Part shown: piece by piece, positions 10,123-63,075 of the stretch
Layout: each line of letters opens with the position of its first letter
Numbering within the stretch: the first letter of the stretch is position 1
IMG/VR virus record: IMGVR_UViG_3300049489_001336
Coordinates: 124,001 to 188,000 of that record
DNA from: a virus
Strand: one strand, 5' to 3'
Length of the DNA stretch: 64,000 nucleotides
Position numbers and translations under genes: made by a program
Notes under the pieces: model-generated
Databases searched by the model: none
The model's input: only the letters and a program-made list of their open reading frames with translations
What the model was told of the DNA's origin: nothing

Positions 10123-10176
10123 CGTAAAACTCCCCATAGCACGAATGCTAGTGGAGAGTTATTATCACGCCGGTTT

Positions 10177-10794: not shown

Positions 10795-10814
10795 TGTTAA
10801 GCCCCTTCAGGTCG

Positions 10815-11180
10815 TCATACCGAACCTTCAATCATCTCTCGAATGTCACACAGGCGTATTCCAATCAGGAGTTCGCCTGCCCCTACATCCGAGGGCGTTC
10901 GGTACCACCAGTCAATGGTGTAGTGCAAATCAAAATCACGTATGGTTTTATCTACTAAACGGTAGATAGCGGATGTTACAATACGGGCCATGTGCCGTGT
11001 GAAATACTGATTAAAGCCAATGATTAATTCATAGGGTACATCCACGTGCTCATTGGCTTCTGCGTAGGTGAATAACACTGATACAACGTCGTCAGGATGT
11101 GTTGTACATAGAATAAACGTCGCAGGACGTGTTGCGTGTTTAGAGACTTCACGTTTTTTCATAACTAAAAAAACGGACAT
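10815..11180 (-). CDS. unknown protein, 121 residues
   Basis: Start at 11180 (MSVFLVMKKREVSKH) has AAAGG at 7 nt; a TTG at 11240 would extend into a strong hairpin (11217-11250) and has no ribosome binding site. Contains ILCTTHPDDVVSVLFTY and IRDFDLHYTIDWWYRTPSD, ending IRLCDIREMIEGSV. No known domain recognised. It is the first gene left of the structured noncoding island at 11.2-11.8 kb and is transcribed away from it. Confidence 0.68.
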   Translation of the reverse strand: MSVFLVMKKREVSKHATRPATFILCTTHPDDVVSVLFTYAEANEHVDVPYELIIGFNQYFTRHMARIVTSAIYRLVDKTIRDFDLHYTIDWWYRTPSDVGAGELLIGIRLCDIREMIEGSV

Positions 11181-11580
11181 GTATAGCCTTTGATAATGTA
11201 CTAAGAATCGACGAAGCAGCGTAAATTTGAGCTTTGTCAAATTTGCGCTGATGAGTCGAGTTCTTTGTAAATTTTTGAAGAGCTCTTACTGAAGACAACG
11301 CAAGCGGAGCGCCTGCAACTACAGTGGTGCGCTATACATGTCGAAACTATTTACCACACACTCGTTTTGTACGATCACGAAGGAGCTCTGGTGCCCACAA
11401 GAGTTCACTTGATAGGTATCACGCGTAGCACCCCAAGCGGAGCTTGGAAAAAAGAGACTGGCGATTCACCAGTCACAGGTATTTTATGGGTTACAAGGCT
11501 GTGAGCGCGTCAGGGGCCTCTGCAGCAGACGAATAACGTCACGCAATACCTTTGGGACAGTTTCTGTGTGGTTGCGAATT
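11181..11580 (+). ncRNA. structured noncoding island, left half
   Basis: No convincing gene. Dense stem-loops: a 13-bp stem 11217-11229/11238-11250 (one G-T pair, which is a pair only if the plus strand is the RNA), GGTGC/GCACC closing 11390-11432, CCAAGC-GGA-GCTTGG at 11433-11447, GACTGG/CCAGTC at 11456-11474, and AGGTATT/AATACCT closing 11477-11551, whose 3' arm follows ACGC. This resembles the islands at 16.7-19.4 kb. Plus strand is inferred; it sits between a divergent and a convergent minus-strand gene. Confidence 0.5.
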
Positions 11581-11584
11581 ATGG

Positions 11585-11811
11585 TGTAGTGTCCTTGTTT
11601 CCTAATAAATATATAAAGAACTATTTGAAGTTATAGTTTTGAAATGGCTACCATTACGCGGCGAGTATCAATACTGATCCGCGCAGCGGCACAGAGAAAA
11701 TGGCGGTACGCCATTCTTGGGAGCGTTATTTCACGCAGAGTACTCATCCCTCGCGATGGGCCTTTCCAATGCATCCACGACGCATCCCTTCGTACGATGT
11801 TCGACACTACA
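11585..11811 (+). ncRNA. multi-branch RNA domain N (CTTG family)
   Basis: A 9-bp perfect stem (TGTAGTGTC 11585-11593 with GACACTACA 11803-11811) encloses about 210 nt. CTTG follows the 5' arm directly (11594-11597), as in domains A, B, D and F. Inner hairpins: AACTAT/ATAGTT at 11619-11638 and AATGGCG-GTA-CGCCATT at 11699-11715 (GNA triloop). The 3' arm is preceded by TC instead of the GC seen in most other copies. A second hairpin uses the 3' arm region (11802-11832) and would compete with it. Confidence 0.5.
11605..11614. promoter_or_regulatory. ATAAATATAT box
   Basis: A/T-rich decamer identical to the one at 18268-18277 and similar to T4-type late promoter TATAAATA elements. Whether it is a promoter is unproven; here it lies inside RNA domain N, which weakens that reading. 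Confidence 0.25.
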
Positions 11812-11849
11812 GACAACTAGTCTCAGTAGTCGTAAAAAACGTGAATTTC

Positions 11850-12080
11850 TTACGACACAGAATCTTCGGCAACAACGCGAAGCTGAGTCTTGGAAAATTC
11901 AGCGATGGTTACTGCGAAGGGGCTTGTCTCCCTTTGCGTTACCGCGAACCCCACAACGTGCCCACCCCGCACATGCAGATATCGCGGATGTACCACAGCT
12001 ACGTCATCCCCCCGGATGAGTAGCGAGACAATTTTCTTGGACGTCCCCCTCGTAACTTCACTATCGACTGTATTTTTCAT
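11850..12080 (-). CDS. small unknown protein, 76 residues
   Basis: ATG with an AAAGGGA ribosome binding site. KIVSLLIRGDDVAVVHPRYLHVRGGHVVGFAVTQ reads as a compact beta-barrel-like small protein; no named domain recognised. It ends against the plus-strand noncoding island at 11.2-11.8 kb. The opposite strand frames are low in protein-like features. Confidence 0.6.
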   Translation of the reverse strand: MKNTVDSEVTRGTSKKIVSLLIRGDDVAVVHPRYLHVRGGHVVGFAVTQRETSPFAVTIAEFSKTQLRVVAEDSVS

Positions 12081-12158
12081 AGTTCCCTTTGGTGGCTTTA
12101 AGAGACTCTACTCATCTTCGTGCACTATGCACCTTTTATTTAGTACAGCGGGTTGTTT

Positions 12159-12569
12159 TTAATGCACCGGTTCAATTCGCACGACTTTCGCTATGGGAAT
12201 AGCAAAGGCTTTATGCGGCATGTCCCGTGGCAACGTGTAAATAGAACCGCCTACTTCGGGCAATTTCCCGGTAATGCGGATGTGCTCTCGAATGGAGTCG
12301 AGAGACGCTTCCGCTTCACCTAGGTGATGCTCCACAAATACTTTTACCGTATTTGCGTCCTTTGTACTGATTTCTGAGGGCGGCTCAGAACTAAAGAACG
12401 CGCGCATTTTGTTTACCATGTCTGCACGCGTTAAACGTTGGGTCACAGTTTTACACTGTGTGCAGAGCATTTCGGCTTCGCCCGTCGCAATGACAGGACG
12501 CACTCGTTGCTCTGTATTAATTTTGCACCGAGGGCAAAGGCAGTATTGCGCGAATTTAGGAAGCGTCAC
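12159..12569 (-). CDS. zinc-ribbon protein
   Basis: 136 residues from a GTG that overlaps the upstream stop by 4 bp. An N-terminal four-Cys zinc ribbon is clear: LCPRCKIN near residue 11-16 and LCTQCKTV near 35-40. The remainder is helical then beta, ending FAIPIAKVVRIEPVH. Zinc ribbons of this kind bind nucleic acid or protein partners; the specific role is unknown. Belongs to the same operon as the paralogous trio upstream. Confidence 0.72.
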   Translation of the reverse strand: MTLPKFAQYCLCPRCKINTEQRVRPVIATGEAEMLCTQCKTVTQRLTRADMVNKMRAFFSSEPPSEISTKDANTVKVFVEHHLGEAEASLDSIREHIRITGKLPEVGGSIYTLPRDMPHKAFAIPIAKVVRIEPVH

Positions 12570-12964
12570 AAACGTACTCTAATACGCTGCACGAGTTTGT
12601 TAAAGCGCTCTGCATTGCAAAGAATGTGAATGGGGTCGTCTTCGTTCACGGTTTTCTTCACAACACGCTTATGTTCATCGCGTTCTTCGACGTAATTGAG
12701 CCTGTGGTGGGTCTTGAAATTTACTTTTCCGTGTTTAGAGACGTTAATAGGCGCTGCGTAGTGCGCGTACATTCGGTAGCGTTGGACACGTTCTTCTGTG
12801 CAACGTTGTTCCCATGTTTGGTTCAAACGTGTGTCATAGAGGACCGTACCATAGTTAGTGTCACGGACTGCTTTGGTGTTAAAGCGAATAACGACTTCGT
12901 CTTCGGTCGTGACCAAAACTTCCCGCTCAGGGAGTTTCTCTAGGAGTGCTTTAGGTTTGCCCAT
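12566..12964 (-). CDS. paralogous trio member 1
   Basis: 132 residues. Shares with the two upstream genes (12968-13330, 13327-13728) a charged middle with a [KS]-K-x-G-[KQ]-x-x-F turn (SKHGKVNFKT) and the end L-x-[RK]-[LM]-[VA]-x-[RV]-[IV]-x-[VI]-[RK]-L, here FNKLVQRIRVRL. Very charged, no membrane segment. Function unknown. Confidence 0.75.
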   Translation of the reverse strand: MGKPKALLEKLPEREVLVTTEDEVVIRFNTKAVRDTNYGTVLYDTRLNQTWEQRCTEERVQRYRMYAHYAAPINVSKHGKVNFKTHHRLNYVEERDEHKRVVKKTVNEDDPIHILCNAERFNKLVQRIRVRL

Positions 12965-12967
12965 GGG

Positions 12968-13330
12968 TTAAAGCCTTATTTGGATGACCCTGGCAAGCTT
13001 CCGTAAGTGTTCAGGATCGTCGTCGTAGCTGTACGGCTCTTCTTCGATCCCTGCGTTGTATTTTTCTTGAAAAGCTATTTCTTCCTCAAACTGCGTGTTA
13101 TGTTCAGGATAACACTTAGAATAGAGTTCCCAACGCTGTTTGGTGCGTTCGACGTCGTAAGGTGTTTTTTGCACTTTACCTTCGAAAAACCGGTACTTGC
13201 CTTTCTTGCTACAATAACCGGGGGGCGTTTTTGCGGTGTAACCCTTTGCTTCAAGCGGAATGGCCAAGTTTAATTTGTAAACCAGCTCATCTTTGACCGT
13301 GATTACGAAGTGCCCTGGAATGTAGGTCAT
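12968..13330 (-). CDS. paralogous trio member 2
   Basis: 120 residues. CSKKGKYRFFEGKVQKTPYDVERTKQRWEL aligns with VDKKGQYSFFAGKKQIITEEEYKEKF in member 3. Then a conserved E-E-P-Y-[ST]-Y-D-x-[DN] piece (EEPYSYDDDPEHLRKLARVIQIRL). Start overlaps member 3's stop by 4 bp. Function unknown. Confidence 0.75.
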   Translation of the reverse strand: MTYIPGHFVITVKDELVYKLNLAIPLEAKGYTAKTPPGYCSKKGKYRFFEGKVQKTPYDVERTKQRWELYSKCYPEHNTQFEEEIAFQEKYNAGIEEEPYSYDDDPEHLRKLARVIQIRL

Positions 13331-13728
13331 AGTTTTATAACCACGCGCTGTACCATTCGATGTAAATCGCCGATATTTACGTCGTAGGTATAGGGCTTGT
13401 CAGGGTCATTACAGTAAAGCCACGTATATTGGCTCCTGAATTTGTACAATTTCTTGGGGTCGTTTTTACATTGCGTGAATTTCTCTTTGTACTCTTCTTC
13501 TGTGATAATTTGCTTTTTACCCGCAAAGAACGAGTACTGGCCTTTTTTGTCGACGTGACCGAGGTGTACGTTGTTCACGACATAGAAATCCTGAGAACAG
13601 TAGTCATAGTTATTTTGTCTGTACAACAGCCAGGATTGCGTAGAAAATGCGAACAGGTTACTACTGAGAACGTACTTTAGGTCTCCCTCGACAGAGTTGA
13701 GGAAGAACCCTTCTGCAGAGATTGCCAT
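13327..13728 (-). CDS. paralogous trio member 3
   Basis: 133 residues. Contains VDKKGQYSFFAGKKQ and DKPYTYDVNIGDLHRMVQRVVIKL, which match member 2. N-terminal half is rich in Asn, Tyr and Phe. The trio looks like a local gene amplification comparable in style to the array at 1-9.5 kb but with different sequences. Function unknown. Confidence 0.75.
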   Translation of the reverse strand: MAISAEGFFLNSVEGDLKYVLSSNLFAFSTQSWLLYRQNNYDYCSQDFYVVNNVHLGHVDKKGQYSFFAGKKQIITEEEYKEKFTQCKNDPKKLYKFRSQYTWLYCNDPDKPYTYDVNIGDLHRMVQRVVIKL

Positions 13729-13731
13729 GGT

Positions 13732-14613
13732 TCACTCTTTGGTTGCGCTCTTTCGCTTACGAGATTTGGCAACGGCCAAGCGCAGCTTTTCTAGGCTGTT
13801 TTGGAATTGAACCGCGACGTCGCCCTTGAGCGTGATTTCGTCTTTCTCGAAGATCTTCAGCATTTGAAGAGCTGCGTCGTTGTCGCCGAAGCGCACTTGT
13901 TCTTCGACACGGCGTTTCATTTGGTCGAGAGCCGTCGCCTTTTCAAAGTACTTCTTGGAGACCTCGCAAATCTCGTCAGAAATACCGGGCATGCCTCTGT
14001 ACAGGGTTTTGTTGATTTGGCGTTCAAGCTCCTGGCCTTCTTTGCCTTTGGCTTCGATTTGCTCAATCAGAGCTTTGCGCTTTTCTTCGATGCTCTTTAC
14101 ATGAGCCCGGAATTGACCAATGGTCATGTTTTGGTCGATGTCTGCCAGCGAAATATCCTCGCTGAGCTCATTGAGCTCATCAACAAGGTCTTGCGCCTCG
14201 GTTTCGAGCGCGTCGCGGCGAATCATCTTGGTAGCTGTCTCGGGGTCCAAGACTTCCATTGCTTTGTTGATGCTCGGAAGCATCTTCAACAATTCGGTGA
14301 CGCGATTGTTGACGATAATTTCAAGGTCTTGGACAGACCGCTCTGTGCCCGCTACTAGGTCTCCCGAGTAGTACTGTTGCCCCCAGTTGCTACGGCCGAT
14401 TTCTTCGCCGAGTTCCCGGAAACGAGGCGTGCCCAAGAAGTGCTTCTCATTGGCACGCCGCGCAATCTCGTAGCTAATACGCCTAAAGATATAAATTTCA
14501 GCGTTGGCGCGTTTGTTGAAAAGGGCAACGTAGTCTTTCTTCTTGTCGTCGCTCCAGGTAGCGATGGCGCCGGAGTTCTCAGAAGCAACAACCAGACTGT
14601 CGAATTCACTCAT
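13732..14613 (-). CDS. coiled-coil protein
   Basis: 293 residues from MSEFDSLVVASEN at 14613. A longer reading from 14694 crosses a terminator hairpin (14644-14662) and is rejected; AAGGAAA supplies the ribosome binding site at 14613. Mostly helical and charged with long heptad-like stretches (about residues 120-200: LETEAQDLVDELNELSEDI, IEEKRKALIEQIEAKG) and a basic tail KSRKRKS. A cytoplasmic scaffold or DNA-associated role is possible; no family recognised. Confidence 0.72.
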   Translation of the reverse strand: MSEFDSLVVASENSGAIATWSDDKKKDYVALFNKRANAEIYIFRRISYEIARRANEKHFLGTPRFRELGEEIGRSNWGQQYYSGDLVAGTERSVQDLEIIVNNRVTELLKMLPSINKAMEVLDPETATKMIRRDALETEAQDLVDELNELSEDISLADIDQNMTIGQFRAHVKSIEEKRKALIEQIEAKGKEGQELERQINKTLYRGMPGISDEICEVSKKYFEKATALDQMKRRVEEQVRFGDNDAALQMLKIFEKDEITLKGDVAVQFQNSLEKLRLAVAKSRKRKSATKE

Positions 14614-14643
14614 TTTACGTTTCCTTGTTAGACAAATAAAAAT

Positions 14644-14662
14644 GGCCCTTGTGAGAAGGGCC
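14644..14662 (-). terminator. rho-independent terminator
   Basis: GGCCCTT (14644-14650) pairs with AAGGGCC (14656-14662), 5-nt loop, and the minus strand continues ATTTTTATTT. It ends transcripts from 14703-16380. The next gene's ribosome binding site begins about 20 nt later. Confidence 0.8.
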
Positions 14663-14702
14663 GCGTTAGACATACGTCTATGTACTTTTACCAAAAAACT
14701 GA

Positions 14703-14948
14703 TTACAGTTTTTCTGGGGGTGTAATAAAGGCTTCAACGGCTTCGGCTAATTTGTCATCTTCGATTTGAAATAACAAATCAGGGCATGCGTTGAGAAGTA
14801 ATTGACCAAGCCGTTGTTCAGGAACCGACAACCACGCGTTAAAAATGCGAATCAGAATCTCTTTCTTTGTACGAGCCGAAACAGCGCGCCCACGCCGCTC
14901 AAGCTCTTTTTCAATTTCACTGGGGCTGGGTATCATTGGTATACCCAT
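14703..14948 (-). CDS. small unknown protein, 81 residues
   Basis: ATG within the 3' end of the exonuclease gene (32-bp overlap), so probably co-translated with it. Helical: PSEIEKELERRGRAVSARTKKEILIRIFNAWL, ending in an acidic helix and TPPEKL. No domain recognised. Last gene before a strong terminator. Confidence 0.65.
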   Translation of the reverse strand: MGIPMIPSPSEIEKELERRGRAVSARTKKEILIRIFNAWLSVPEQRLGQLLLNACPDLLFQIEDDKLAEAVEAFITPPEKL

Positions 14949-15759
14949 TATAGATAGCCTCCAAGTACTTGCGTTGTTCCTCGGATAGGTTATCCATCCG
15001 CAAGCAGAATTCCAGGTAGTCGGGCTCGATGCTGAGTACTTCCGCTACAAAGCGCCCTGAATGTTTTCCTGCGGTGAATTTCCAAATGTTATTTTCGGAA
15101 TCAACCTTGGTGATGATTTTGCTGAAGCTCTTAGGCTTCTCCAACGCTTCTTTCACAGCATTGGCATCAACAACGATTTGACCCTTGAGGGTGTCACGCA
15201 TTTTCTTGAGGATATCCACCATGGCGAGCACGTCGCTTAGAGACGTATGCGCTTCGGTGTGAGTCACACCGTAGGCTTCGCTCAAGACCTGCAAACGGTA
15301 GGCAGGGCGCATAGCCCCCAACGTCACCAAGTCAGTGAAAATGGCAACGCCAACCGTGTCCAACCCATGATAACCAAAGATACTGTCATAGCCCTTGGAG
15401 TGCTTTTCCTTTTTCCAGTGCTTGTTGAACAAAGCCTTGAGAAAGCCACGGTCAAAGGGCAAGTTGTGCGCAATCTGTTTGAGACGGCTGTAGCCCTTTA
15501 AAAAGGCGTACACGCCGTTAAACATTTCTTCTTGGGTGACGGCACCGAGAGAATCCCATTTCTCTTTGGTATAGCCGTTGACTTTAAGAGCGCCTTCGTC
15601 AATAACGGCACCCTCGGATGGATGCGCGAAAAAAGTAACACCACTGACCGTATTGAGAGACTCATCTAATACGAGCATGCTGATGCTAATGATTTCGTTT
15701 ACTTCTTCGTTGAGACCTGTGGTCTCTGTATCAAAGGCGAGAAACTCAGCTTTAGGCAT
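14917..15759 (-). CDS. DnaQ-like 3'-5' exonuclease
   Basis: 280 residues. ExoI motif FDTETTGL at residues 9-16 (Asp10, Glu12), a middle HNLPFDRGFL (ExoII, Asp in NLPFD) and ExoIII-type HTEAHTSLSDV with the final catalytic Asp, giving the DEDDh set of the RNase T / DNA polymerase III epsilon family. It removes nucleotides from 3' ends, as proofreading or DNA/RNA processing. The 80-residue C-terminal extension is not assigned. The dNMP kinase gene lies 3 bp upstream, in the same operon. Confidence 0.85.
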   Translation of the reverse strand: MPKAEFLAFDTETTGLNEEVNEIISISMLVLDESLNTVSGVTFFAHPSEGAVIDEGALKVNGYTKEKWDSLGAVTQEEMFNGVYAFLKGYSRLKQIAHNLPFDRGFLKALFNKHWKKEKHSKGYDSIFGYHGLDTVGVAIFTDLVTLGAMRPAYRLQVLSEAYGVTHTEAHTSLSDVLAMVDILKKMRDTLKGQIVVDANAVKEALEKPKSFSKIITKVDSENNIWKFTAGKHSGRFVAEVLSIEPDYLEFCLRMDNLSEEQRKYLEAIYNGYTNDTQPQ

Positions 15760-15762
15760 GTT

Positions 15763-16380
15763 CTAAAACCCCAGTGTGCTAAGGAATTCTTCTACGAGAT
15801 CTCGCAGAAGATACAATTCCCGCCCTTTGTTGTCGATGACATAATCTTCTTTTATCTCGCTTAATTCCGTTTCTGATTTATGCGAGGATGTTTGCAAGTC
15901 CGCTTCGGGGCGCTTCACGCGTACGATCAAACCGCCTGCGTTTTGTATCGCATTTGCCTCGGACAGAAAGCGAATGTCAGACACCACCACAAGCTTTGTA
16001 TGGTTGCTCGGGTGGTCGAGGAGCTTGCGCGCACGTCCAATCATAAGTTTCGACCAAACGTCTTCGTGGACATGGCGAAACCCTTCTGTACCTACGTACT
16101 GCAAAATACGCCGCCCACTCCAACCGGGGACGCTTTCTAAAAGCGCTTCTTTTTGGGCTTGAGAGCCGTAGAACGCTTCGCGAGGAACATCGAACGCCGT
16201 CGAGAACACGTCAAAGCACATTTCTTTGAGCGGATCTGCACAGGCAATTTTGGTTGCTTGGTGGAAGTGTTTGCTGCGGAGCTTGACAAGCTCGCAGATA
16301 AAGTCTGAAACGGTGTCTTTGCCTGCCCCTGCGCGGCCAGTAATCCCAAGGATGGGCGTTGCCAATTCAATTTTTGCCAT
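15763..16380 (-). CDS. deoxynucleoside monophosphate kinase
   Basis: 205 residues. P-loop ITGRAGAGKDTVSDFI (residues 13-28), then ADPLKEMCFDVFSTAF, a lid region with GWSGRRILQYVGTEGFR, VVSDIRFLSEANAI, VKRP and a final HKSETEL. These match the T4 gene 1 type dNMP kinase family, which phosphorylates dNMPs (including modified ones in some phages) to feed DNA synthesis. First gene of a minus-strand operon, divergent from the plus-strand gene at 16432. Confidence 0.85.
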   Translation of the reverse strand: MAKIELATPILGITGRAGAGKDTVSDFICELVKLRSKHFHQATKIACADPLKEMCFDVFSTAFDVPREAFYGSQAQKEALLESVPGWSGRRILQYVGTEGFRHVHEDVWSKLMIGRARKLLDHPSNHTKLVVVSDIRFLSEANAIQNAGGLIVRVKRPEADLQTSSHKSETELSEIKEDYVIDNKGRELYLLRDLVEEFLSTLGF

Positions 16381-16431
16381 CCGCGCAAGATATCAAATAC
16401 ACATTTAGGTGTAAATGGCTATGCTTATGCC
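16381..16431. promoter_or_regulatory. divergent intergenic region
   Basis: Only 51 bp separate the divergent starts at 16380 (minus) and 16432 (plus), so promoters for both directions should be here or overlap the genes. A small inverted repeat TACAC-atttag-GTGTA lies at about 16399-16414. No clear -35/-10 pair seen. Confidence 0.3.
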
Positions 16432-16728
16432 ATGAATACAGTAACAGTACGTGGAGTACTCAAAACATGTCCCGCAACGGGCGCACGTAAATGGGCGGGT
16501 TACGTGTCAGAAGACACAGAAGTACCTGCTGGTTTGGTGGCAGCCTCAATTGAGGTGTTGGACCCTGAAGACCAGACGGGTAATCGCTGGATTTTAGCAG
16601 TCTCGGAGCCCTTGACGCCTTTGGATTCTGCGACATTAGACGCGCTTGCGCAGGGAGACGCTGTGCGCTTGGCAAAGTCTAAGCTAACCGACGCAGACCT
16701 CGCGGCATTGGGTCTCACGCGCGAATAG
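16432..16728 (+). CDS. small unknown plus-strand protein, 98 residues
   Basis: MNTVTVRGVLKTCPATGARKW reads like a small beta protein, and the C-terminus LDALAQGDAVRLAKSKLTDADLAALGL is helical. The opposite strand frames are far less protein-like. It is the only plus-strand gene in this part and is followed at once (7 bp) by the structured RNA island A-B-C on the same strand, so the RNAs could be its 3' untranslated region or be processed from its transcript. Ribosome binding site weak (GGTG about 20 nt upstream). Confidence 0.6.
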   Translation: MNTVTVRGVLKTCPATGARKWAGYVSEDTEVPAGLVAASIEVLDPEDQTGNRWILAVSEPLTPLDSATLDALAQGDAVRLAKSKLTDADLAALGLTRE

Positions 16729-16734
16729 CTAAAA

Positions 16735-16884
16735 AAGAGTGAGTGCCTTGAGTAGCCTACTTGCTACACAGTAGGCTGTGCTTTGTCACGAGATAAGAGA
16801 GTCGATCTCGTGATTAAGCGTGTGCATAAAACATCTCAGTGACGGAGCGTCACTGGTTGCGTGTTCACGCGCGCACCCACTCTT
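16735..16884 (+). ncRNA. multi-branch RNA domain A (CTTG family)
   Basis: Closing stem of 12 positions, 11 paired: AAGAGTGAGTGC (16735-16746) with GCACCCACTCTT (16873-16884). CTTG follows the 5' arm; CGCGC precedes the 3' arm. Inside: AGCCTAC/GTAGGCT (16754-16777, 10-nt loop), CACGAGAT/ATCTCGTG (16787-16812, 10-nt loop), CAGTGACG-GAG-CGTCACTG (16837-16855) and GCGT/ACGC (16859-16870). The arms do not form a tRNA. No open frame fits. Confidence 0.65.
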
Positions 16885-17023
16885 AAACTCTACCTTGGTT
16901 ATCTGGAAGACCAAGTCCGAAGGACAGGGTCTGACTTTTACTTTTTAACCACCAAAGGCCTATTTATGCATGACGGAACATCATGCCGATAAGGATCTTG
17001 TCATCAAGACGCGTAGAGTTTAA
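16883..17023 (+). ncRNA. multi-branch RNA domain B (CTTG family)
   Basis: An 11-bp perfect closing stem, TTAAACTCTAC (16883-16893) with GTAGAGTTTAA (17013-17023). CTTG follows the 5' arm and ACGC precedes the 3' arm. Inner hairpins: CTTGGT/ACCAAG (16894-16915, 10-nt loop), TCC-GAA-GGA (16916-16924), GCATGA/TCATGC (16968-16986, containing TGACGGAACATCA) and CTTG/CAAG (16997-17008). Shares two bases with domain A's closing stem, so A and B are packed end to end. Confidence 0.65.
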
Positions 17024-17208
17024 CCATGCTTTTTAGTTTGGCCTGGAGCCGTGCTGGAGTGTGCGAAATTTCTCATGCGACCGACCGAAAATTTCGCGAC
17101 ACGGAAGCTTCGGCGCAAGGGCCCGACGTCGTATTAAGCGTGCTTAATCGCGTCGGTGTTCTATTTGATCAGCGGTACACTGATGCGTTTATCCTAGGAT
17201 GCCATGGT
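17023..17208 (+). ncRNA. multi-branch RNA domain C
   Basis: Closing stem ACCATG/CATGGT (17023-17028/17203-17208), shorter than in A and B. CTTT follows the 5' arm and GC precedes the 3' arm. Inner elements: GCGAAATTT/AAATTTCGC (17063-17097), CCGACG/CGTCGG (17123-17156) with a nested ATTAAG/CTTAAT, ATCAG/CTGAT (17168-17184) and the palindrome ATCCTAGGAT (17191-17200). It ends 13 bp before the stop of the convergent coiled-coil gene. Confidence 0.5.
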
Positions 17209-17220
17209 CAAACAAAACTA

Positions 17221-18222
17221 TTACGACTTACGCTGCGAACCGTTGTTCTCGGCGCGCACCGTTTGCAGGTCGCGAAGCTCGGTAAGAGCCTGACGACCCG
17301 AAGCAGCGTCGAGCGCCTTTTCGGACAAAGAAACGTTCTTGGCGTAGGCTTCGCTGAGCTTGACGCCAAGGTCCGTGACTTGTGCGCTGAGGCGAGAAAC
17401 CTCGTCCTTCGCAGCATGCAGTTGTGCTTGTAGTTGGGCCACTTGAGACGCGTGGTCGCGCGAAGCCAGTTCGGACGCGTGCTTGTGATCGCGAGAAATG
17501 GCACTTGCAACAGTAGCCACTTCCTTCTTCACCGCAGCGTCGATTTCATCCTGGATGCCAGCAATGCGAGTCATTGCAGCAATAAATTCAGACTCGCGCG
17601 CCTTGAGGGCGCTTTCACGAGACTGGAAGTTACGTTCGAATTCCGCCGCGCGAAGGCTTTCGGCCCGCTTGGCGTCTTCCATGGCGTTTTTCCACACGGT
17701 CTCTTCGTTCCGGCGACGGAGATCTCGCTCGTACTTGTACTGCTCTTCTTCGCGAATGCGCGTCTTAAGCGCTTCGTCGTTTCGTTCCTGGACCAGCTTG
17801 GCGTGTGCGGCCTTTTCGACATCCCACTGCTGACGAAGTGCCGCAATCTCGCTTTCCAGAGCCAACTTCTGCCGGTCATGGTCTTCGACCAACGCGGCAA
17901 GCGACGAACCAATGACCTCTTTGGCAAACAACGCCTCAAGGTCTTTCTGTTTGACCTGAATTGCGAGATCGATCTCTTCGAGACGACGGGTCTTTGCCGT
18001 GAGCGTTTCGCTCAAGCTCGAAAGAGCACGGACGGTGCTCAAGCTGGCGTCCGTGATTTCTTTGACCACGGAGTCTACGGTGATTCCCTGAACCGCTTTG
18101 CGTGCAGTATCTGCGCGGGCTTCTGCTGCTTCACGTTCCTTGGGAGGAATTCCCGAAGCCTGAGACAACTGAGCCTTAAGATTTGCAACGTCGCGTTCGA
18201 GATCTGCTTTGGTCTTACCCAC
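17221..18222 (-). CDS. long coiled-coil protein
   Basis: 333 residues from a GTG with an AGAGGT ribosome binding site. Almost entirely helical with heptad character: KADLERDVANLKAQLSQ at the start, LTAKTRRLEEIDLAIQVKQKDLEALFAK, LALESEIAALRQQWDVEKAAH, and QVAQLQAQLHAAKDEVSRLSAQVTDL. No Walker motifs, so not an SMC ATPase. May be a filament, scaffold or nucleoid-associated protein. It lies between RNA island A-B-C and island D-G, on the opposite strand to both. Confidence 0.75.
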   Translation of the reverse strand: MGKTKADLERDVANLKAQLSQASGIPPKEREAAEARADTARKAVQGITVDSVVKEITDASLSTVRALSSLSETLTAKTRRLEEIDLAIQVKQKDLEALFAKEVIGSSLAALVEDHDRQKLALESEIAALRQQWDVEKAAHAKLVQERNDEALKTRIREEEQYKYERDLRRRNEETVWKNAMEDAKRAESLRAAEFERNFQSRESALKARESEFIAAMTRIAGIQDEIDAAVKKEVATVASAISRDHKHASELASRDHASQVAQLQAQLHAAKDEVSRLSAQVTDLGVKLSEAYAKNVSLSEKALDAASGRQALTELRDLQTVRAENNGSQRKS

Positions 18223-18267
18223 AAGTACCTCTGTCTTTTACTTTACCGAATTCAAAAAATGCAGGTG

Positions 18268-18277
18268 ATAAATATAT
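18268..18277 (+). promoter_or_regulatory. ATAAATATAT box ahead of RNA island D-G
   Basis: Identical decamer to 11605-11614, reading GATAAATATATCG, 10 bp before the closing stem of domain D. It could serve as a -10-like or T4-late-like promoter element with a start near 18285; that would place the RNA domains at the very 5' end of the transcript. No -35 element seen. Confidence 0.35.
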
Positions 18278-18287
18278 CGCGTTTTTA

Positions 18288-18443
18288 ACGGCAACGCTTG
18301 CTTTTAAGAGGTTTGAAAGGTCTGTAGCGTACACGCTAGTGCAGCGAAAGACCCGCAAACCGAGAAAGTTGCGCAGCAATGCGCGATTAATCAGTATTTT
18401 TGGCGGTGCGCCAAATTCCGTTTGTAGACGGAGCCGTTGCCGT
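18288..18443 (+). ncRNA. multi-branch RNA domain D (CTTG family)
   Basis: A 9-bp perfect closing stem, ACGGCAACG (18288-18296) with CGTTGCCGT (18435-18443). CTTG follows the 5' arm and GC precedes the 3' arm. Inner hairpins: GGTCT/AGACC (18319-18353) over TAGCG-taca-CGCTA, GCGCA-GCAA-TGCGC (18371-18384, GNRA loop), TTTGGCG-GTG-CGCCAAA (18399-18415) and TCCGT/ACGGA (18417-18432). Confidence 0.65.
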
Positions 18444-18460
18444 AATGCTGTGCTCTACAG

Positions 18461-18504
18461 ATAATGCGGACCGGAACCCTGGAAGGGTGTAGGTCCTACA
18501 TTAT
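18461..18504 (+). ncRNA. extended hairpin E
   Basis: Three stacked helices: ATAATG/CATTAT, GGACC/GGTCC and ACCCT-GGA-AGGGT, separated by small bulges, topped by a GGA triloop. It sits between domains D and F. The bases 18505-18576 contain only a weak CTAG/CTAG pairing. Confidence 0.5.
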
Positions 18505-18576
18505 TTGTATACTGGCTAAGTTTGTTATTATTTAACACTAGCGGTTCACTAGCTTACTGTTTAAGTGCCATTACGA

Positions 18577-18707
18577 ACAGCTATGCTTGAATGCTCAAAA
18601 CTTGGAATCCCGCAAGTTTTGGGCGGATCTCGGAAGGACCCCGCGTAGGGGTACGAAGTTGACGGAACGTCAACCAGGGAGTGGCTTTACCACAACGCCA
18701 TAGCTGT
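18577..18707 (+). ncRNA. multi-branch RNA domain F (CTTG family)
   Basis: A 9-bp perfect closing stem, ACAGCTATG (18577-18585) with CATAGCTGT (18699-18707). CTTG follows the 5' arm and ACGC precedes the 3' arm. Inner hairpins: CAAAACTTG/CAAGTTTTG (18596-18621), ACCCC-gcgta-GGGGT (18638-18652), GTTGACG-GAA-CGTCAAC (18658-18674) and GTGG/CCAC (18681-18693). The third has the same core as hairpins in A and B. Confidence 0.65.
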
Positions 18708-18709
18708 CA

Positions 18710-18840
18710 CCTCTTCCTGTATTGCCCCGCTTTATTGCATTCGGTGGAGCATTGGAGAGCCATACGCGAAGCGTGGTCGCGCTGGGACTATCATATACAA
18801 GACCGGCGAAACACCGATCGATACAACGATTGCGAAGAGG
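18710..18840 (+). ncRNA. RNA domain G, closing stem holds a ribosome binding site
   Basis: Closing stem CCTCTTC (18710-18716) with GAAGAGG (18834-18840), the latter being the Shine-Dalgarno of the membrane peptide at 18846. GC precedes the 3' arm; CTGT follows the 5' arm. Inner pieces are shorter: ACGC-GAA-GCGT (18764-18774, containing GCGAAGC) and ATCG/CGAT (18817-18830). A regulatory leader that hides the start site is the simplest reading. Confidence 0.5.
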
Positions 18841-18845
18841 CCAAA

Positions 18846-18968
18846 ATGATTAAGACTATTCTGGATATACCTTTAAGTCAGGTTGATCTAGTTACTGCAT
18901 TGTGGATCGCACCTTTCTTTATTTGTATTCCAGCTGTCTTTTCTGCGTTCATGAACGCAGGTAAATAA
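18846..18968 (+). CDS. 40-residue membrane peptide
   Basis: MIKTILDIPLSQVDLVTALW then IAPFFICIPAVFSAFMNAGK: a short amphipathic start and one hydrophobic span of about 20 residues, no signal-cleavage site. ATG with GAGG 6 nt upstream. A longer in-frame reading from 18681 runs through structured RNA and is rejected. Candidate roles are a small holin-like, toxin-like or inner-membrane regulatory peptide; the sequence alone does not decide. It is bracketed by RNA domains on the same strand. Confidence 0.6.
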   Translation: MIKTILDIPLSQVDLVTALWIAPFFICIPAVFSAFMNAGK

Positions 18969-18971: not shown

Positions 18972-19028
18972 CACACGCCTGGTGTGTAATAATTTTAATT
19001 AAAAGCGTAGCATTTAATTAAAATTATT
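18972..19028 (+). ncRNA. two hairpins, one a 16-bp perfect A/T stem (H)
   Basis: CACAC/GTGTG (18972-18986) is followed by a 16-bp perfect stem made only of A and T (18988-19003 with 19013-19028) with the 9-nt loop AGCGTAGCA. It comes 3 bp after the membrane peptide's stop. It is not followed by a T-tract on either strand, so it is not a classic terminator. Confidence 0.55.
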
Positions 19029-19043
19029 TGAGCAACGCGTACC

Positions 19044-19207
19044 ACACTGAAAGTGTACACGTATTTAACTACAACGACGGTTCGTCGTCTTGTGAGCTTT
19101 CCGGAATGAAGCTAACTCACAATTTGGTTCGCGTGTGATGACATGCCTGTTATGTGTAAGCGACTTATTACTTAACAACGCAGTTGTTAATTAATAAGGC
19201 AGCGACG
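19044..19207 (+). ncRNA. structured segment I
   Basis: Hairpins ACACT-GAA-AGTGT (19044-19056), ACGACG-GTT-CGTCGT (19074-19088), TTGTGAG/CTCACAA (19090-19122), ACAT/ATGT (19141-19155) and a 15-bp arm with one mismatch ending in TTAACAAC-GCA-GTTGTTAA (19164-19198). CGTCGT (19083-19088) is followed by CTTG and could instead pair with GCGACG (19202-19207), which would make this another CTTG-type domain. No gene seen. Confidence 0.45.
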
Positions 19208-19219
19208 TTAGCGTACCGA

Positions 19220-19313
19220 CTTCTTTCGAAGAAATTTTAACGGACTAATAGCGTAGGCGTAAGCCGTAGTTATTAGTACTTTAAAATTGCGTCCCCACAG
19301 GGGTCGAAAGAAG
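19220..19313 (+). ncRNA. RNA domain J
   Basis: A 10-bp perfect closing stem CTTCTTTCGA/TCGAAAGAAG (19220-19229/19304-19313) encloses one long arm of nested stems, AATTTTAA/TTAAAATT (19233-19288), ACTAATA/TATTAGT (19244-19277) and GGC-GTAA-GCC (GNRA loop), plus a small CCCC-ACA-GGGG hairpin. It lacks the CTTG/GC junction of the other domains. Confidence 0.5.
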
Positions 19314-19318
19314 GCGAC

Positions 19319-19394
19319 GCGCAGTATCCTATACAGCCGTGATGGCGATACGCCATCTAAAGGAATTCCTTAGCGCATGTCGTAAATACTGCGT
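19319..19394 (+). ncRNA. RNA domain K
   Basis: Closing stem CGCAGTAT (19320-19327) with ATACTGCG (19386-19393), plus one G-T pair, around GATGGCG-ATA-CGCCATC (19341-19357) and the palindrome AAGGAATTCCTT (19360-19371). It follows J directly. From here to the thyA stop (19446) only a weak CTTTT/AAAAG pairing is seen. Confidence 0.5.
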
Positions 19395-57286: not shown

Positions 57287-58270
57287 ATGGCTGGTACACA
57301 AGTTTCAATGCAACGCAAGTCCGTCGTTGCTTCAGGTACGACACGTTATGAAATCAGCACTGCTTGCACTGTGCGTGGCACATTGCCTGACACGAATATT
57401 TTCCTGTTAACCATACTTACGGCGGATGACCCCAAGGACGACACGTTTAGCCGCGTCTGCAATACCGCAGATTTTACAGAGTACCAGACCAATCGCGACG
57501 CTGCTGTAGACGACGCGGATGGGAGCTGGCGGTCATCGTCGATGACACTCAGTTATACAGACGTAGAAGTTGCGAACGCCGCTTGGAAAGAGCTGTCAAG
57601 CCGCATTAATTCTCTCGTTGAGAATTACGACGCCTTTTTAGAAGACTTTGAGACCTTCGATGAAGGTGAAGTCATTTCTTATCCAACGGCGGATGAATCT
57701 ACAAAAACGGCTCTAAAAGACGCGTATTACGCGGCCGACACTGCATTAACCGAAGCACAAGACGCAGTTACCGAGAAGACGGAAGAGTGTTCTTCTGACG
57801 ACGAGGAAGTCGCAGAAATCGAAGCTGATTTACAGCAGGCACAGTCTGACCTCACGCAAGCATTACGTATACAAGCAACTGTCAATGCTTGTAACGTTTC
57901 TTATGTATCTATACACACCGCGTTATTTGCTAATAATACAAGTCTTCGTAGTGCAATAACCTTGTCGGATGCAACAGAGACACAGCAAGCAGGCATGTTG
58001 TCTACGTTGTCGCAAAATGACGCGCAATTAAACGTCTTCACCACACAGAATACTGCACTTTCCGGGGCGATAACAGACATCACAAGTCAAGTGTCCACGC
58101 TTCAAGCGCGTGTAACTTCATTGCAGCAAGCCAAGAATACAGCCCTTGTGGACCTAAATAAATGCAGCACTGAAATCGCTAGACTCCAGGCTGCATCTAC
58201 TGCCGCTCAGGAAAAGCGAGAAGCTGCGCTTGCAGCGGTTCTGGCTATTTGTCCTGATTTCGTGCCCTAA
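57287..58270 (+). CDS. paralogous trio member with coiled coil, 327 residues
   Basis: N-terminal third shares DDTFSRVCNTADFTEY with its neighbours; the rest is a long helical hairpin or coiled coil (AEIEADLQQAQSDLTQALRIQ; ISTLQ-type heptads in TSQVSTLQARVTSLQQAKNTALVDLNKC) with several Cys. Ends VLAICPDFVP. May be a fibre or neck protein; unproven. Convergent with the gene at 58267, with 4 bp overlap. Confidence 0.65.
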   Translation: MAGTQVSMQRKSVVASGTTRYEISTACTVRGTLPDTNIFLLTILTADDPKDDTFSRVCNTADFTEYQTNRDAAVDDADGSWRSSSMTLSYTDVEVANAAWKELSSRINSLVENYDAFLEDFETFDEGEVISYPTADESTKTALKDAYYAADTALTEAQDAVTEKTEECSSDDEEVAEIEADLQQAQSDLTQALRIQATVNACNVSYVSIHTALFANNTSLRSAITLSDATETQQAGMLSTLSQNDAQLNVFTTQNTALSGAITDITSQVSTLQARVTSLQQAKNTALVDLNKCSTEIARLQAASTAAQEKREAALAAVLAICPDFVP

Positions 58271-59676
58271 TAGAAAGGCACTGGCATCGTGTTATTTGCG
58301 TAATTATTGGCTTCTACTTTTAATGTGGGCCGCAGCAAATTGTAGTAAGATTCTACGCTACTTCCAGGGTGTAGTTCCGCAGCGACGAATTTGCTGCGTG
58401 TGGTACACCCTTGTTGTACTACGCTGCCTCGATCAAACGTAATTGCATATTGGGGATGCGGTTGATGCCCGCTCCCGTGTATGGTGCGTTTGGTTGCGAA
58501 AATCGCGTGGGCCAATACGTGTTTGGCGTGTATCTCTACATCAGGTACCGCGTTTGCGCGAGGCAGAAGCGGGTACATTTTCTGCAGTTCTTCGTAATTG
58601 TCAAACTTCTTGTAGCGCTGCAGGTCGCCTTTAGCCGCTGCTACTTCGTAATAGAGTTTGCCTGAAGTAAGACGAAATCCCGCAAGAATTGTTTCGGTAT
58701 TACGCGCAGGGGTAATCGCCCTGTTTGTGTAACACGTACCTGATGCATGAATCAAATAACGGATTTGCTTCGTTGTGAAAGACGCGGTGCCCTCTGTCAT
58801 AGGCGTCGAGTCGTGCAGCCAACGGAAAAGCACGTCCCAGGCAGTGCTTTCCAACACGTGCGATTTGCAGTTATTAATCAGGCCGCAGTCTTTCACTGTG
58901 CCGTCGTATTTCTTATACGAGAAGACGCATTGGGGACATTCTATTTTTCGGTGCGCAAAACGACGTGCGCTATCAGCACCGCGCTCGGCGAGTTCCTTCT
59001 TGCGCTTGTATATGGCTTCGAAATTGTGGTTATCCCAAGGACGAATCGCGTCATTGAAATCGAGCTCGGTGGTGAGAGCTCCACTCACGTATTCGAAACC
59101 TTGAACTTCTTGATACCGTTTACGCTTATAAACGGTTAAGTCCAAATTGTTGTACAACTTGGTATCTGTAAGTACAGGGAAACGCGCGTACGCCGTAATA
59201 GGTAAGCACGTGCCTTCTGCTAATGCTGAACAGGGGCAATGGCCTGTGAATCGCTCCAGGCGGGTACAGTCGTCGTATACGTCGTCGAATTCAACAAATG
59301 CGGCTTCTGAGCCAGGGTCATTGATGTTGTTCAATACCCAGCCGCTTAGACGCGTCTGTGCCAGATACTCGTATTCCCCGTCATTTGCGAATAATCGGAG
59401 CTTTTTACGCGGAAAGGGGAAATCAGTCGTATTGAACGACGCCGCAATTGTGTTTGGATCAACGCGTAACGCGACAACCGTTGAACTATTCTCGTGCAAA
59501 CCCGATAACGTCCACAAGGCTTTTTGGATGTCTTTAAATTCTAGGACATCTTCTGTGTCGTGAAACAAGTAACCCTGCCCTGCCTTAGGATACACCAATT
59601 CCCATTCAGTTCTTTTCCGGCGTCGATACGTCCGTAGAGATCCCGTCATGAGGCAAATGGTGTAGTACCGTGACAT
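58267..59676 (-). CDS. Cys-rich unknown protein next to the reverse transcriptase
   Basis: 469 residues; ATG has GGAG 8 nt upstream and lies 71 bp inside the RT gene. Two Cys clusters: DDCTRLERFTGHCPC...GTC (about 136-157) and IECPQCVF...KDCGLINNC (about 250-272), suggesting zinc or iron-sulfur sites. The C-terminal half has HVLAHAIFATKRTIHGSGHQPHPQ, rich in His. No family recognised. Last gene of the four-gene RT operon. Confidence 0.7.
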   Translation of the reverse strand: MSRYYTICLMTGSLRTYRRRKRTEWELVYPKAGQGYLFHDTEDVLEFKDIQKALWTLSGLHENSSTVVALRVDPNTIAASFNTTDFPFPRKKLRLFANDGEYEYLAQTRLSGWVLNNINDPGSEAAFVEFDDVYDDCTRLERFTGHCPCSALAEGTCLPITAYARFPVLTDTKLYNNLDLTVYKRKRYQEVQGFEYVSGALTTELDFNDAIRPWDNHNFEAIYKRKKELAERGADSARRFAHRKIECPQCVFSYKKYDGTVKDCGLINNCKSHVLESTAWDVLFRWLHDSTPMTEGTASFTTKQIRYLIHASGTCYTNRAITPARNTETILAGFRLTSGKLYYEVAAAKGDLQRYKKFDNYEELQKMYPLLPRANAVPDVEIHAKHVLAHAIFATKRTIHGSGHQPHPQYAITFDRGSVVQQGCTTRSKFVAAELHPGSSVESYYNLLRPTLKVEANNYANNTMPVPFY

Positions 59677-60694
59677 GGTGCAACTCCGCTTCCATTAGCT
59701 GCTGTTTCAGTTTCGCGGCTTTTTCAGGGTTAATCATGTGATAGTAAGAGATTTTGCCTTCAATTTGGGACTTCAACTGTTCCCCGTTTTGAAGGCCCAT
59801 CTCTTTTGCCACGGAATCAAATCCCTGGTACTTACAATGATGAATCCGAGCACGTAGCCGGCGATAATGAAGACGAATCACATTGGGTTTTTCGTTCACC
59901 GTCATGCCAAGCAAGCGTTGATGTCGTCCAGGACGAGCAACACGAAGCTTCTTACGGTTGACGGTGTATCCACCCTTTTTGATTAATCTGCAGATACTTC
60001 TAATGAAAGCGTTGGTCTCTTGCCGCGTAAACACACGGTTAGATGAGAATGCCAAATCATCCGCGTAACGTGTATACGTAACGTCCCATTTCTTGCATTC
60101 TTCAAGAATGGGTTGATCAATGCGATGATGGGCTACCCAATTACAAACCGCGCCGCTTGTAGGAGCACCCTGCGGAACCACATAACGAGGCCCCACAGGA
60201 GTTTCAACACGGATGGTGGATAAATCCGCGATGGCACTGGCTACTTCAAACGGCAAACAAAACTGGTCTTGCAAAGCTCTACGTATCCAAGCACGTCGCG
60301 TAGACGGGAAAAAGTCTTTCAAGTCAATGACGATGAGGATCTTTTTACCACTGTGTTTTTCCGCGCTGTGCCGCGTGGTACGGTTTGGAACGTACGCACT
60401 AATATGTTCGGGATACTCGATTTTGCTGAAAAATCGTTCCAAGAGACGTGTTTGAACGAATTTCAGCTTTCGGTCTGGGGCGTGGATCGTACGTTTTCCA
60501 CCAGACTTCTTGGGTATCACAAAACGTTTATACAACTTAGAACGCGTAATAATCATTGCCATGAGCGTTCGATTACGAATACCTAGCGAATGCGCTAGTG
60601 ACATCGTGTCGATTACCCAAGGCACTCCTGCCGGTATTTTTGTAAAATCCGGCAAGTCAATGATATTAATCGTCGTTCTGTTGTACGCTGGCAT
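59606..60694 (-). CDS. retron-type reverse transcriptase
   Basis: 362 residues with a GGAGGGGG site upstream. RT motifs in order: KSGGKRTIHAP (63-73), VIDLKDFFPST (122-131, Asp124), VPQGAPTSGAVCN (173-185), TRYADDLAFSS (208-218, catalytic YADD), KGGYTVNRKK and RLLGMTVNEKPNV (260-272). The C-terminal thumb HYRRLRARIHH and KSQIEGKISYYHMINPEKA look like retron RTs. Retron region X (NAxxH) reads SAEKH and region Y (VTG) reads LLG. It is not a DGR-type RT (no IGxxxSQ). No msr-msd space upstream: the preceding gene overlaps by 29 bp. Confidence 0.88.
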   Translation of the reverse strand: MPAYNRTTINIIDLPDFTKIPAGVPWVIDTMSLAHSLGIRNRTLMAMIITRSKLYKRFVIPKKSGGKRTIHAPDRKLKFVQTRLLERFFSKIEYPEHISAYVPNRTTRHSAEKHSGKKILIVIDLKDFFPSTRRAWIRRALQDQFCLPFEVASAIADLSTIRVETPVGPRYVVPQGAPTSGAVCNWVAHHRIDQPILEECKKWDVTYTRYADDLAFSSNRVFTRQETNAFIRSICRLIKKGGYTVNRKKLRVARPGRHQRLLGMTVNEKPNVIRLHYRRLRARIHHCKYQGFDSVAKEMGLQNGEQLKSQIEGKISYYHMINPEKAAKLKQQLMEAELHHVTVLHHLPHDGISTDVSTPEKN

Positions 60695-61319
60695 CTGTAG
60701 ATCCCCCTCCGATTTCAGAAAAGTCTAACGCCTTGTAACAGACGTCTTCTCCAGGAGTGCATGCTCCTTGTAAATGCAAGAGTGCACGCGGACACACCGA
60801 ACAAATAGGGCGAATGGCGTCGTCTGGAGGGGGGTTGGGCGTCGCCAAATACGCAAACTCGTTCAGAGGCGGTTGGACTACTTTTAATCGTCGTTTTGCC
60901 TGTTGGGCAAACCAGGTCTTCGTGCTCAAGTACCGAGGACGTACCTTTTTACGCACAATTGACGTAAGCACAGGTACTACGACAAGGCGTTCGCCTATAT
61001 CGATTTCTTGGTCTAGCTCGGACCACCACTGTGCAACTTCTTCTCGGCTATGGGAACGCCCATTGATGACTTTATCGTCAATTTCCGTCGGGATGTGCAA
61101 ATGCCCATCATTACGGTAGAAATGTTTTCGGGATAGTTCCTTGGGTCGGAGTTTGAAAAGACTATCTTTGAAGTCATCGGTCAACGGCAAGACGATCGCG
61201 TATCCGAAAATGCGTGGAACAAGCAATCTGTCTTTCGGATAAAAGAGGTACACCTTATCGAAGGGTATCTCTTTTCCTGCCGCTGCACGATGGATGTGAA
61301 TGTCGATGACGTTAGACAT
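60666..61319 (-). CDS. four-Cys unknown protein in the RT operon
   Basis: 217 residues. N-terminal half is a mixed domain (DIHIHRAAAGKEIPFDKVYLFYPKD, VPRIFGYAIVLPL); the middle GERLVVVPVLTSIVRKKVRPRYLSTKTWFAQQAKRRL is basic; the end has a Cys cluster PICSVCPRALLHLQGACTPGEDVC (C-x2-C-x11-C-x6-C) that may hold zinc or an iron-sulfur cluster. Overlaps the VWA gene by 8 bp and the RT by 29 bp, so all are likely co-translated. Function unknown. Confidence 0.68.
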   Translation of the reverse strand: MSNVIDIHIHRAAAGKEIPFDKVYLFYPKDRLLVPRIFGYAIVLPLTDDFKDSLFKLRPKELSRKHFYRNDGHLHIPTEIDDKVINGRSHSREEVAQWWSELDQEIDIGERLVVVPVLTSIVRKKVRPRYLSTKTWFAQQAKRRLKVVQPPLNEFAYLATPNPPPDDAIRPICSVCPRALLHLQGACTPGEDVCYKALDFSEIGGGSTDASVQQNDD

Positions 61320-63075
61320 TCGCGTCCTCTAGTTGGTAATCCTTCATCATGATGGTGATATGCCCGCTGTCTGCCATGACGGGTTGTCCACGGGGCGTGA
61401 GCAACCAGACGCAAGGGATGGGAATGCGCGTGGTAGGCGGCGGCGCGTAGCCATCAGTGCAATAAATCATGATATCCGGGGCCTTGTCTGTACGGCGTGT
61501 CATTTCGAGAACGTGCTGGAAAGCAGGCTCGAAATCGGTGCCGCCTCGGCCTGTGAGACCAAAATCGATTTCATCGGAAGGACCAATCCAATATTCTTTG
61601 GAGATATGCGTGTCGATGTAGATGACACAGATATCGATATCGGAATCCGCTTTTTGAATGTGCTGTAGTTCAGAAAGGCCCAGGCTGAGTTCATCACGGC
61701 CCATGGAGCCTGACGTATCTACAACATAAACAATGGTGAATTTATTGTTTTGTTTGATGCCTGGAAATACAGGCATACGTCGAATCATTCGATTGAGGTG
61801 AATGAAACGAGGGTCGCCTTCTTCCTCTTTCAAGCGTGCGTACACCTTTAGTGCCGACAGCTTTTTAGAGGGACGGCTCATGCCGCGTTCTTTCTTGGTC
61901 TGCCTGGTGCGTTGCACGATATTGTGCAAAAACTGCGTCCACGGCACGACAGGCGGCGTGAGCATTTTGCGGATCATTTCCATGATATGCCCAGGCAAAG
62001 TGCCTCGGGATTTCTCATGGCTCGACAACGTGGCCTTAATTAGCTCACGCCCGTGTTCCGCTAATTTATGTGCTTCGCCTTCATCCGTTTGATCGCTTGT
62101 TATTTGCCAAGCGAGGTGCGGACGCAGGCTGTGCATAATCATTTCAAGGATTTTTTGGTCGACCGGGTCGAGGTTTTCGAGGTCGCTGAGGAGGTCTTCG
62201 GGGTTACCTTGACCTTGACCTTGACCGTTGCCTTGGTTTTGACCTTGGCTCCCTTCTCCTTGCCCATCCCCTGCTTGGGGTTGAGAAGGTGGCATCGAAC
62301 CAGAACCCTGCCCTTGCGAGTCCTGACTGTTATCCTTCTTTTGGCTATCGTCTTTAGACGAGCCTCCGCTACCGTTTTCTTGCTCTTTCTCTTCTTTGTC
62401 GGCGTCGTTACTGCCATCGCCGTTTTGGTTTTCTTTGGAAAACGCTTTCTGTAAAGCTTTTTGTTCTTTGTCCAGTAGCTTTTTAGCTAGCTGATATATT
62501 GCCTGAGGAGGCGTCTTAAGCCGCTGCTTAAGAAGATCGATCAACATATGCTGATAGTCTTCGTAAGCCATGTCTTTAGGCATGGGCGGGTCAAAGCTTT
62601 CAGGTAAGACCCACATGCCTAGAGGCTTATTGACTTGATCTTTTATCTTGGCCCAATTGCGCGCAAGAAGCTCATTCGCTGCAGCGTCAACGCCAAGATT
62701 GCTCGTCAAGTCAAACAGCTGTTGGTCCTCTTCGAGCGCAAAAATTCGGCGCTTTTGCAAGCTGCGCGGAATGTGATCCAGAATTATGTGGAGCACCTCG
62801 TGCTCACACGTGGCGCATACTTCTTCGAAAGTAACGCGCGCAGCAAAAACAGGGTCGTATATGAAAATGTACCGCCCGTGCTGAACAGACACTCCCATGG
62901 TTCCAAAACCAGGGATTGCGACACGGTCCATTTGATTGATAACACGCGCGTAAAAATTACCAACTTTGTTGCCTGTAAGGTACGTCAAAGCATCGGCAAC
63001 GCTGTCCCGCCCAACGCGTACGGTCTCAGCAAGCTTCTCCTGGTCTACTTTTACTTTCTCTACACCTGTTCTCAT
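61312..63075 (-). CDS. metallopeptidase-like / VWA domain protein (DUF2201-type)
   Basis: 587 residues. N-terminal putative metallopeptidase with HEVLH at 92-96 (CEHEVLHIILDH), a Gln/Gly/Ser-rich linker (about 213-292), and a C-terminal VWA-like domain with MIDAS residues DTSGSMG (453-459), Thr513 in GRGGTDF and CTDG (539-542). This pair of domains occurs in bacterial proteins usually next to a MoxR-type AAA ATPase, none of which is in view. First gene of the RT operon. Likely a chaperone-like or metal-dependent remodelling protein, by family. Confidence 0.85.
   Translation of the reverse strand: MRTGVEKVKVDQEKLAETVRVGRDSVADALTYLTGNKVGNFYARVINQMDRVAIPGFGTMGVSVQHGRYIFIYDPVFAARVTFEEVCATCEHEVLHIILDHIPRSLQKRRIFALEEDQQLFDLTSNLGVDAAANELLARNWAKIKDQVNKPLGMWVLPESFDPPMPKDMAYEDYQHMLIDLLKQRLKTPPQAIYQLAKKLLDKEQKALQKAFSKENQNGDGSNDADKEEKEQENGSGGSSKDDSQKKDNSQDSQGQGSGSMPPSQPQAGDGQGEGSQGQNQGNGQGQGQGNPEDLLSDLENLDPVDQKILEMIMHSLRPHLAWQITSDQTDEGEAHKLAEHGRELIKATLSSHEKSRGTLPGHIMEMIRKMLTPPVVPWTQFLHNIVQRTRQTKKERGMSRPSKKLSALKVYARLKEEEGDPRFIHLNRMIRRMPVFPGIKQNNKFTIVYVVDTSGSMGRDELSLGLSELQHIQKADSDIDICVIYIDTHISKEYWIGPSDEIDFGLTGRGGTDFEPAFQHVLEMTRRTDKAPDIMIYCTDGYAPPPTTRIPIPCVWLLTPRGQPVMADSGHITIMMKDYQLEDANV

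Follow-up and report, generated by a model that had tools for sequence, protein, structure and literature searches.

Candidate natural multi-template retrons: tandem, diverged msr-msd-like units in the noncoding DNA of large phages

Introduction

To our knowledge, known retrons are bacterial defence cassettes in which one reverse transcriptase (RT) is served by one template. Retron RTs carry the motif NAXXH in their region X. Their region Y is marked by the motif VTG (PMC6868368). The retron noncoding RNA (ncRNA), as described in the literature, has two arms, a1 and a2, a priming G within a conserved AGC just 3' of a1, the msr stem-loops and the msd.

Here we analyse a window of 64 kb, bases 124001-188000 of a virus contig of 189,879 bases, which encodes a terminase and PolA and, inside the window, a thymidylate synthase. 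An earlier note on this DNA had described a series of structured domains, lettered A to N and read on the plus strand, as a candidate new RNA family. Our comparisons of sequence and predicted structure indicate that these noncoding stretches are very probably natural multi-template retron arrays. The domains do form a family, though not a new class of RNA, since they share the anatomy of the retron msr-msd ncRNA and each phage with an array has kept a retron-type RT.

Results

The arrays of the window

On the minus strand, domains A to G and three further ones make up about ten tandem, diverged units. They are given below with the arms on either side of the junction letters, together with domain N and the T runs that close two of the arrays.

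11167..11173, minus strand: T7 run; in the minus sense it immediately follows the final unit of the first array and precedes the start of a minus-strand gene
11176..11342, minus strand: unit W1a, retron-like ncRNA; putative a1/a2 stem GACATGTATAGC, 12 bp; junction GCA...AAAG; hairpin TGCAGGCGCTCCGCTTGCG; descriptor match
11585..11811, minus strand: domain N; 9-bp stem and G..G junction, without a YGNNYCG hairpin at the proper distance
16731..16736, minus strand: T6 run; in the minus sense it comes behind unit A's putative a2 arm
16735..16884, minus strand: unit A; AAGAGTGGGTGC, GCG...CAAG, GCACTCACTCTT; descriptor match
16883..17023, minus strand: unit B; TTAAACTCTAC, GCG...CAAG, GTAGAGTTTAA; descriptor match
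17018..17213, minus strand: unit C; GTTTGACCATG, GCA...AAAG, CATGGTTAAAC; descriptor match
18288..18443, minus strand: unit D; ACGGCAACG, GCT...CAAG, CGTTGCCGT; descriptor match
18440..18576, minus strand: unit E; TCGTAATG, GCA...ACAG, CATTACGG; descriptor match
18576..18708, minus strand: unit F; GACAGCTATG, GCG...CAAG, CATAGCTGTT; descriptor match
18709..18841, minus strand: unit G; GCCTCTTC, GCA...ACAG, GAAGAGGT; hairpin UG-UUU-CG, as in the Eco1 msr; descriptor match
18972..19137, minus strand: unit H; CACACGC, GAA...CCAG, GCGTGTG; hairpin about 42 nt past the arm and so outside the strict descriptor
19140..19381, minus strand: unit I; GACATGC, GCT...ACAG, GCATGTC; descriptor match

This inventory departs in part from the copies first proposed. 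The unit at 11176-11342 (12-bp stem, CTTT and GC on the plus strand), H and I had been overlooked, and E fits as well. Domain N has the junction for which it had been listed, lacks a hairpin at the right distance, and is either a degenerate unit or a chance resemblance; the stem at 11474-11554, also put forward as a member, does not fit. Between units G and H the opposite strand holds a 40-aa ORF with a hydrophobic stretch (18846-18968, plus strand), its ATG preceded by a GAGG that lies within the arm of unit G; this ORF may be a chance one. Positions 243-11240 are taken up by a row of about 20 short genes on the minus strand, each encoding 110-205 aa.

Anatomy, strand and covariation

Read on the minus strand, the consensus unit starts with a 5' arm of 6-12 bp, followed by a G that is invariant and by a C in about two thirds of the cases; the A of the retron AGC is not conserved. 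A small hairpin, a short linker and a hairpin with a YG-NNY-CG apex come next, then 40-180 variable bases, AG and the 3' arm, with little or no spacer before the following unit. The triloop hairpin is found in every unit used, and its closing pairs are identical in Eco1.

For 18 units, an ungapped alignment could be made of the closing stem together with the triloop hairpin. All 216 core pairs are standard on the minus strand, 13 of them being G-U, whereas the plus strand offers 203 Watson-Crick pairs, no G-U and 13 A-C mismatches (94% standard pairs against 100%), and the plus-strand reading of the earlier note was rejected on this count. Arms and hairpin stems covary (score of 1.16 versus 0.27 after shuffling, reached in 0 of 500 shuffles), a result partly built in for the closing helix, the arms having been found through their complementarity; the mismatch-class test and the descriptor shuffles are free of this circularity. 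A family of structured RNA domains with covarying arms and one conserved junction, as had been suggested, is upheld.

After the last unit, in the minus sense, stands a U-run in the window's first two arrays, a U7 terminator in one relative (G005) and a U-rich stretch in the other (G004), and the genes flanking the arrays run in the same direction as the units. Together with the standard core pairs, these features place the RNA on the minus strand. U-runs or a terminator at array ends, just ahead of the next gene, would also be expected if the arrays were cis-acting structures that served the adjacent minus-strand operon as 3' UTR, as terminator or in processing. We hold this to be very unlikely, as it leaves the conserved internal hairpin, the invariant G and the link with the RT unexplained. 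Palindromes acting at the DNA level are not favoured either, because the core motifs all face one direction.

Folding as such says less about the strand. At full length, all six loci give z-scores of -4 to -9 on both strands, and neither the folding energy of whole arrays nor the composition of their unpaired bases separates the strands; z-scores in 140-nt windows do not discriminate, the whole genome being structured. No purine excess was seen among the unpaired bases of the arrays, unlike in this phage's own group I introns. Two such introns lie on the minus strand of locus L010 (3462-3912 and 7531-7713), where eight tRNA genes are also located, and a ninth tRNA (Tyr) is found in L011.

Strong folding and tandem multi-helix domains would suit a new large ornate phage RNA of the GOLLD/ROOL kind, built of cloverleaf-like domains, unrelated to the RT and with a structural or multivalent protein-binding role. 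A search of the arrays with Rfam covariance models returned no msr and no other family (a tmRNA_permuted match in G004, E 0.26, was judged to be chance), which this explanation would accommodate, and the setting in a phage is that of GOLLD and ROOL (PMC12286853). However, the plan of the unit is that of the Eco1 ncRNA, element for element, a retron-type RT is present in all phages with arrays, and in two further phages described below the arrays lie beside the RT. We therefore find such an RNA unlikely.

Specificity of the junction and of the unit

The closing stems, with CTTG, CTTT or CTGT on one side and GC on the other (plus-strand letters), were found in A, B, C, D, F and G where the earlier note had placed them, with F decoded there as 18577-18707 and G as 18710-18840. 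When stems with at least 9 Watson-Crick pairs were compared, those flanked by CTT and GC numbered 6 out of 17 for the noncoding loci (of the window and the two relatives), versus 1 of 554 elsewhere in the genome. Moreover, the noncoding loci contain 25 triloop hairpins, and their closing stems scoring at least 9 showed the inner mismatch C..C in 16 instances and all other classes together in 7 (16/23 for C..C). The signature is therefore not a common accompaniment of random inverted repeats in this genome. What proved too narrow was CTTG as the general form: it is merely the commonest CTNN, and the relatives have CTAT, CTAG, CTTC and CCTC. The near-invariant element is C..C on the plus strand, that is G..G on the minus strand. 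This conserved junction is probably read by a protein.

The descriptor of the unit was made before retrons came into consideration. In the 64-kb window it gave 9 matches, all on the minus strand and all inside four noncoding stretches, compared with 0.005 per shuffle; the opposite strand of the noncoding loci gave none, and the remaining 126 kb of the genome two isolated ones. In the sequence of G004 and G005 that was examined, it found only the arrays and, close to where G004 ends, one further site (L027, 19699-19886). Over the 3.8 million strand-bases of all examined loci there were 71 matches, those outside arrays being scattered and mostly in GC-rich loci.

As a positive control, the E. 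coli C locus gave one match, the Eco1/Ec86 retron ncRNA itself, on the right strand (TGCGCACCCTTA, GCG..GACG, TAAGGGTGCGCA, hairpin GGATGTTGTTTCGGCATCC); the letters of the Eco1 msr query were confirmed in 48 E. coli genomes. The descriptor found no ncRNA close to four other retron-type RTs of phages, so it is not a general test for retrons. When viral contigs were screened by pattern for three UAC-loop hairpins in tandem, 25 stretches came up, with units in G005 only; the others that were inspected look like protein-gene repeats. No unit was present in the ncRNA gap of ICP1, and in distant helicase relatives no array was found near the helicase.

Arrays and reverse transcriptases in other phages

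Two relatives, G004 (104 kb) and G005 (180 kb), were found through the terminase. In both, the corresponding position beside the dNMP kinase gene is taken up by structured noncoding DNA, and it is there that their arrays lie. All three array phages encode a retron-type RT, which in the window belongs to the following group of genes.

58267..59676, minus strand: 469-aa gene downstream of the RT and overlapping it; conserved with the RT
59606..60694, minus strand: retron-type RT of 362 aa with YADD; Pfam RVT_1 9e-20, PADLOC RT_XIII 2e-70, PDB retron RTs 2e-24 and down
60666..61319, minus strand: 217-aa gene overlapping the RT start; conserved with the RT
61312..63075, minus strand: DUF2201 metallopeptidase-like and VWA-like protein; lies upstream of the RT and accompanies it in all three phages

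The best PDB matches of the window's RT are retron RTs, and PADLOC RT_XIII matches the three phage enzymes at 2e-70, 6e-68 and 7e-72. The RT is 76% identical to that of G004 and 64% to that of G005. By eye, and without structural alignment, SAEKH stands in the place of NAXXH and RLLGMT (LLG) in that of VTG. The distance from RT to array is 34-49 kb in the three phages (about 40 kb here, 49 kb in G004 and 34 kb in G005). No PADLOC model matched the other genes of the RT operon, and no known retron effector lies beside the RT; the DUF2201 and VWA-like protein is a possible partner of the retron. At 51426-55568 the window also has a gene for ribonucleotide reductase that includes domains for intein splicing and LAGLIDADG homing.

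A search with the RT led to retron-type RTs in two other large phages, Staphylococcus phage S6 and Listeria phage LPJP1. In each, a noncoding gap of 1.2 kb directly upstream of the RT (L179, 1180-2458, and L180, 1301-2509, respectively) contains tandem structured units. S6 has four stems with a G..G junction (L179, 1283-1495, 1537-1729, 1732-1939 and 1945-2111), and in three of the four the G is followed by a closely similar pair of hairpins. LPJP1 has units with one and the same msr part at L180 1489-1638, 1777-1937 and 1945-2104; a further one, at 1300-1473, has this msr as well, its junction being G..T. As the stems were picked after looking and AT-rich DNA yields stems by chance, the recurrence of the msr part is here the stronger evidence.

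The phage of the window also encodes a Ro60-like (TROVE/VWA) protein, at contig 85070-86836 (L011, 5070-6836; Pfam vWA_Ro60 7e-14, TROVE 2e-7). Ro60 proteins bind structured ncRNAs, and the units might be its ligands, as in a Ro60/Y-RNA system. No Ro60 was found in the array phages G004 and G005, a weak negative, and we regard this explanation as extremely improbable.

Discussion

If the noncoding stretches are retron arrays, they would be transcribed on the minus strand along with the neighbouring genes. The closing stem would correspond to the a1/a2 duplex, and the invariant G that borders this stem on its inner side would be the one used for priming (branching). Two hairpins, the small one and the one with YG-NNY-CG, would be msr stem-loops, the latter being the putative recognition stem of the RT, and the variable 3' part would be the msd. 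Encoded about 40 kb from the array, the RT would have to act in trans; priming at the G of each unit, this single enzyme could produce a set of different RNA-linked single-stranded DNAs (msDNAs) during infection.

What such a set might serve is a matter of conjecture. Our guess, made with low confidence, is that the msDNAs or their RNPs act as decoys and keep sensors or effectors of the host occupied, for example those of host retrons. We place this as more likely than a defence against rival phages, which comes close behind. The wider proposal, in which some large phages combine one trans-acting RT with a diversifying tandem array into an msDNA library for counter-defence, one example being to tie up the effectors of host retrons or other ssDNA/RNP sensors, is put forward tentatively and may well be wrong. 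Use of the msd as an editing donor for the phage's own genes is disfavoured, as no unit matched the rest of the phage genome better than E 0.07.

We found no description of natural multi-template retrons in the open-access literature, which does not prove that none exists. The presence of natural arrays with many diverged templates in three groups of large phages, which seem to be separate, suggests that phages put retrons to uses of their own and that many distinct msDNAs are possible within one cell. The purpose of msDNA diversity thereby becomes directly testable, and the arrays provide natural designs for multi-template retron tools.

These retron-like arrays are a variant and not a canonical retron, as msr-msd and RT, 34-49 kb apart, do not form one compact cassette. 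The likeness to Eco1 (Ec86) extends to the a1/a2 stem, the G-C just inside it, a small hairpin followed by a triloop hairpin closed by UG/CG, a variable msd and a G before a2. However, Eco1 is a single copy adjoining its RT and effector, whereas here there are about ten diverged copies, an RT 40 kb off and no recognised effector. Type XIII (PADLOC RT_XIII) is the top-scoring class for the RTs of all three phages, but the scores of several other retron RT models come close and the type XIII partner genes are not recognised. S6 and LPJP1 each share the tandem arrangement (about four units), the G..G junction and a common msr part with differing arms and msd; they differ in the array being directly upstream of the RT, in another msr sequence and in an RT with a long N-terminal extension. 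GOLLD and ROOL are likewise large structured noncoding phage RNAs, but they are single large folds that form RNA-only assemblies (PMC12286853), and no RT goes with them. Finally, engineered retron arrays (Gonzalez-Delgado 2024, cited in PMC12548924) likewise have several templates per RT; those are man-made, whereas the arrays described here would be natural.
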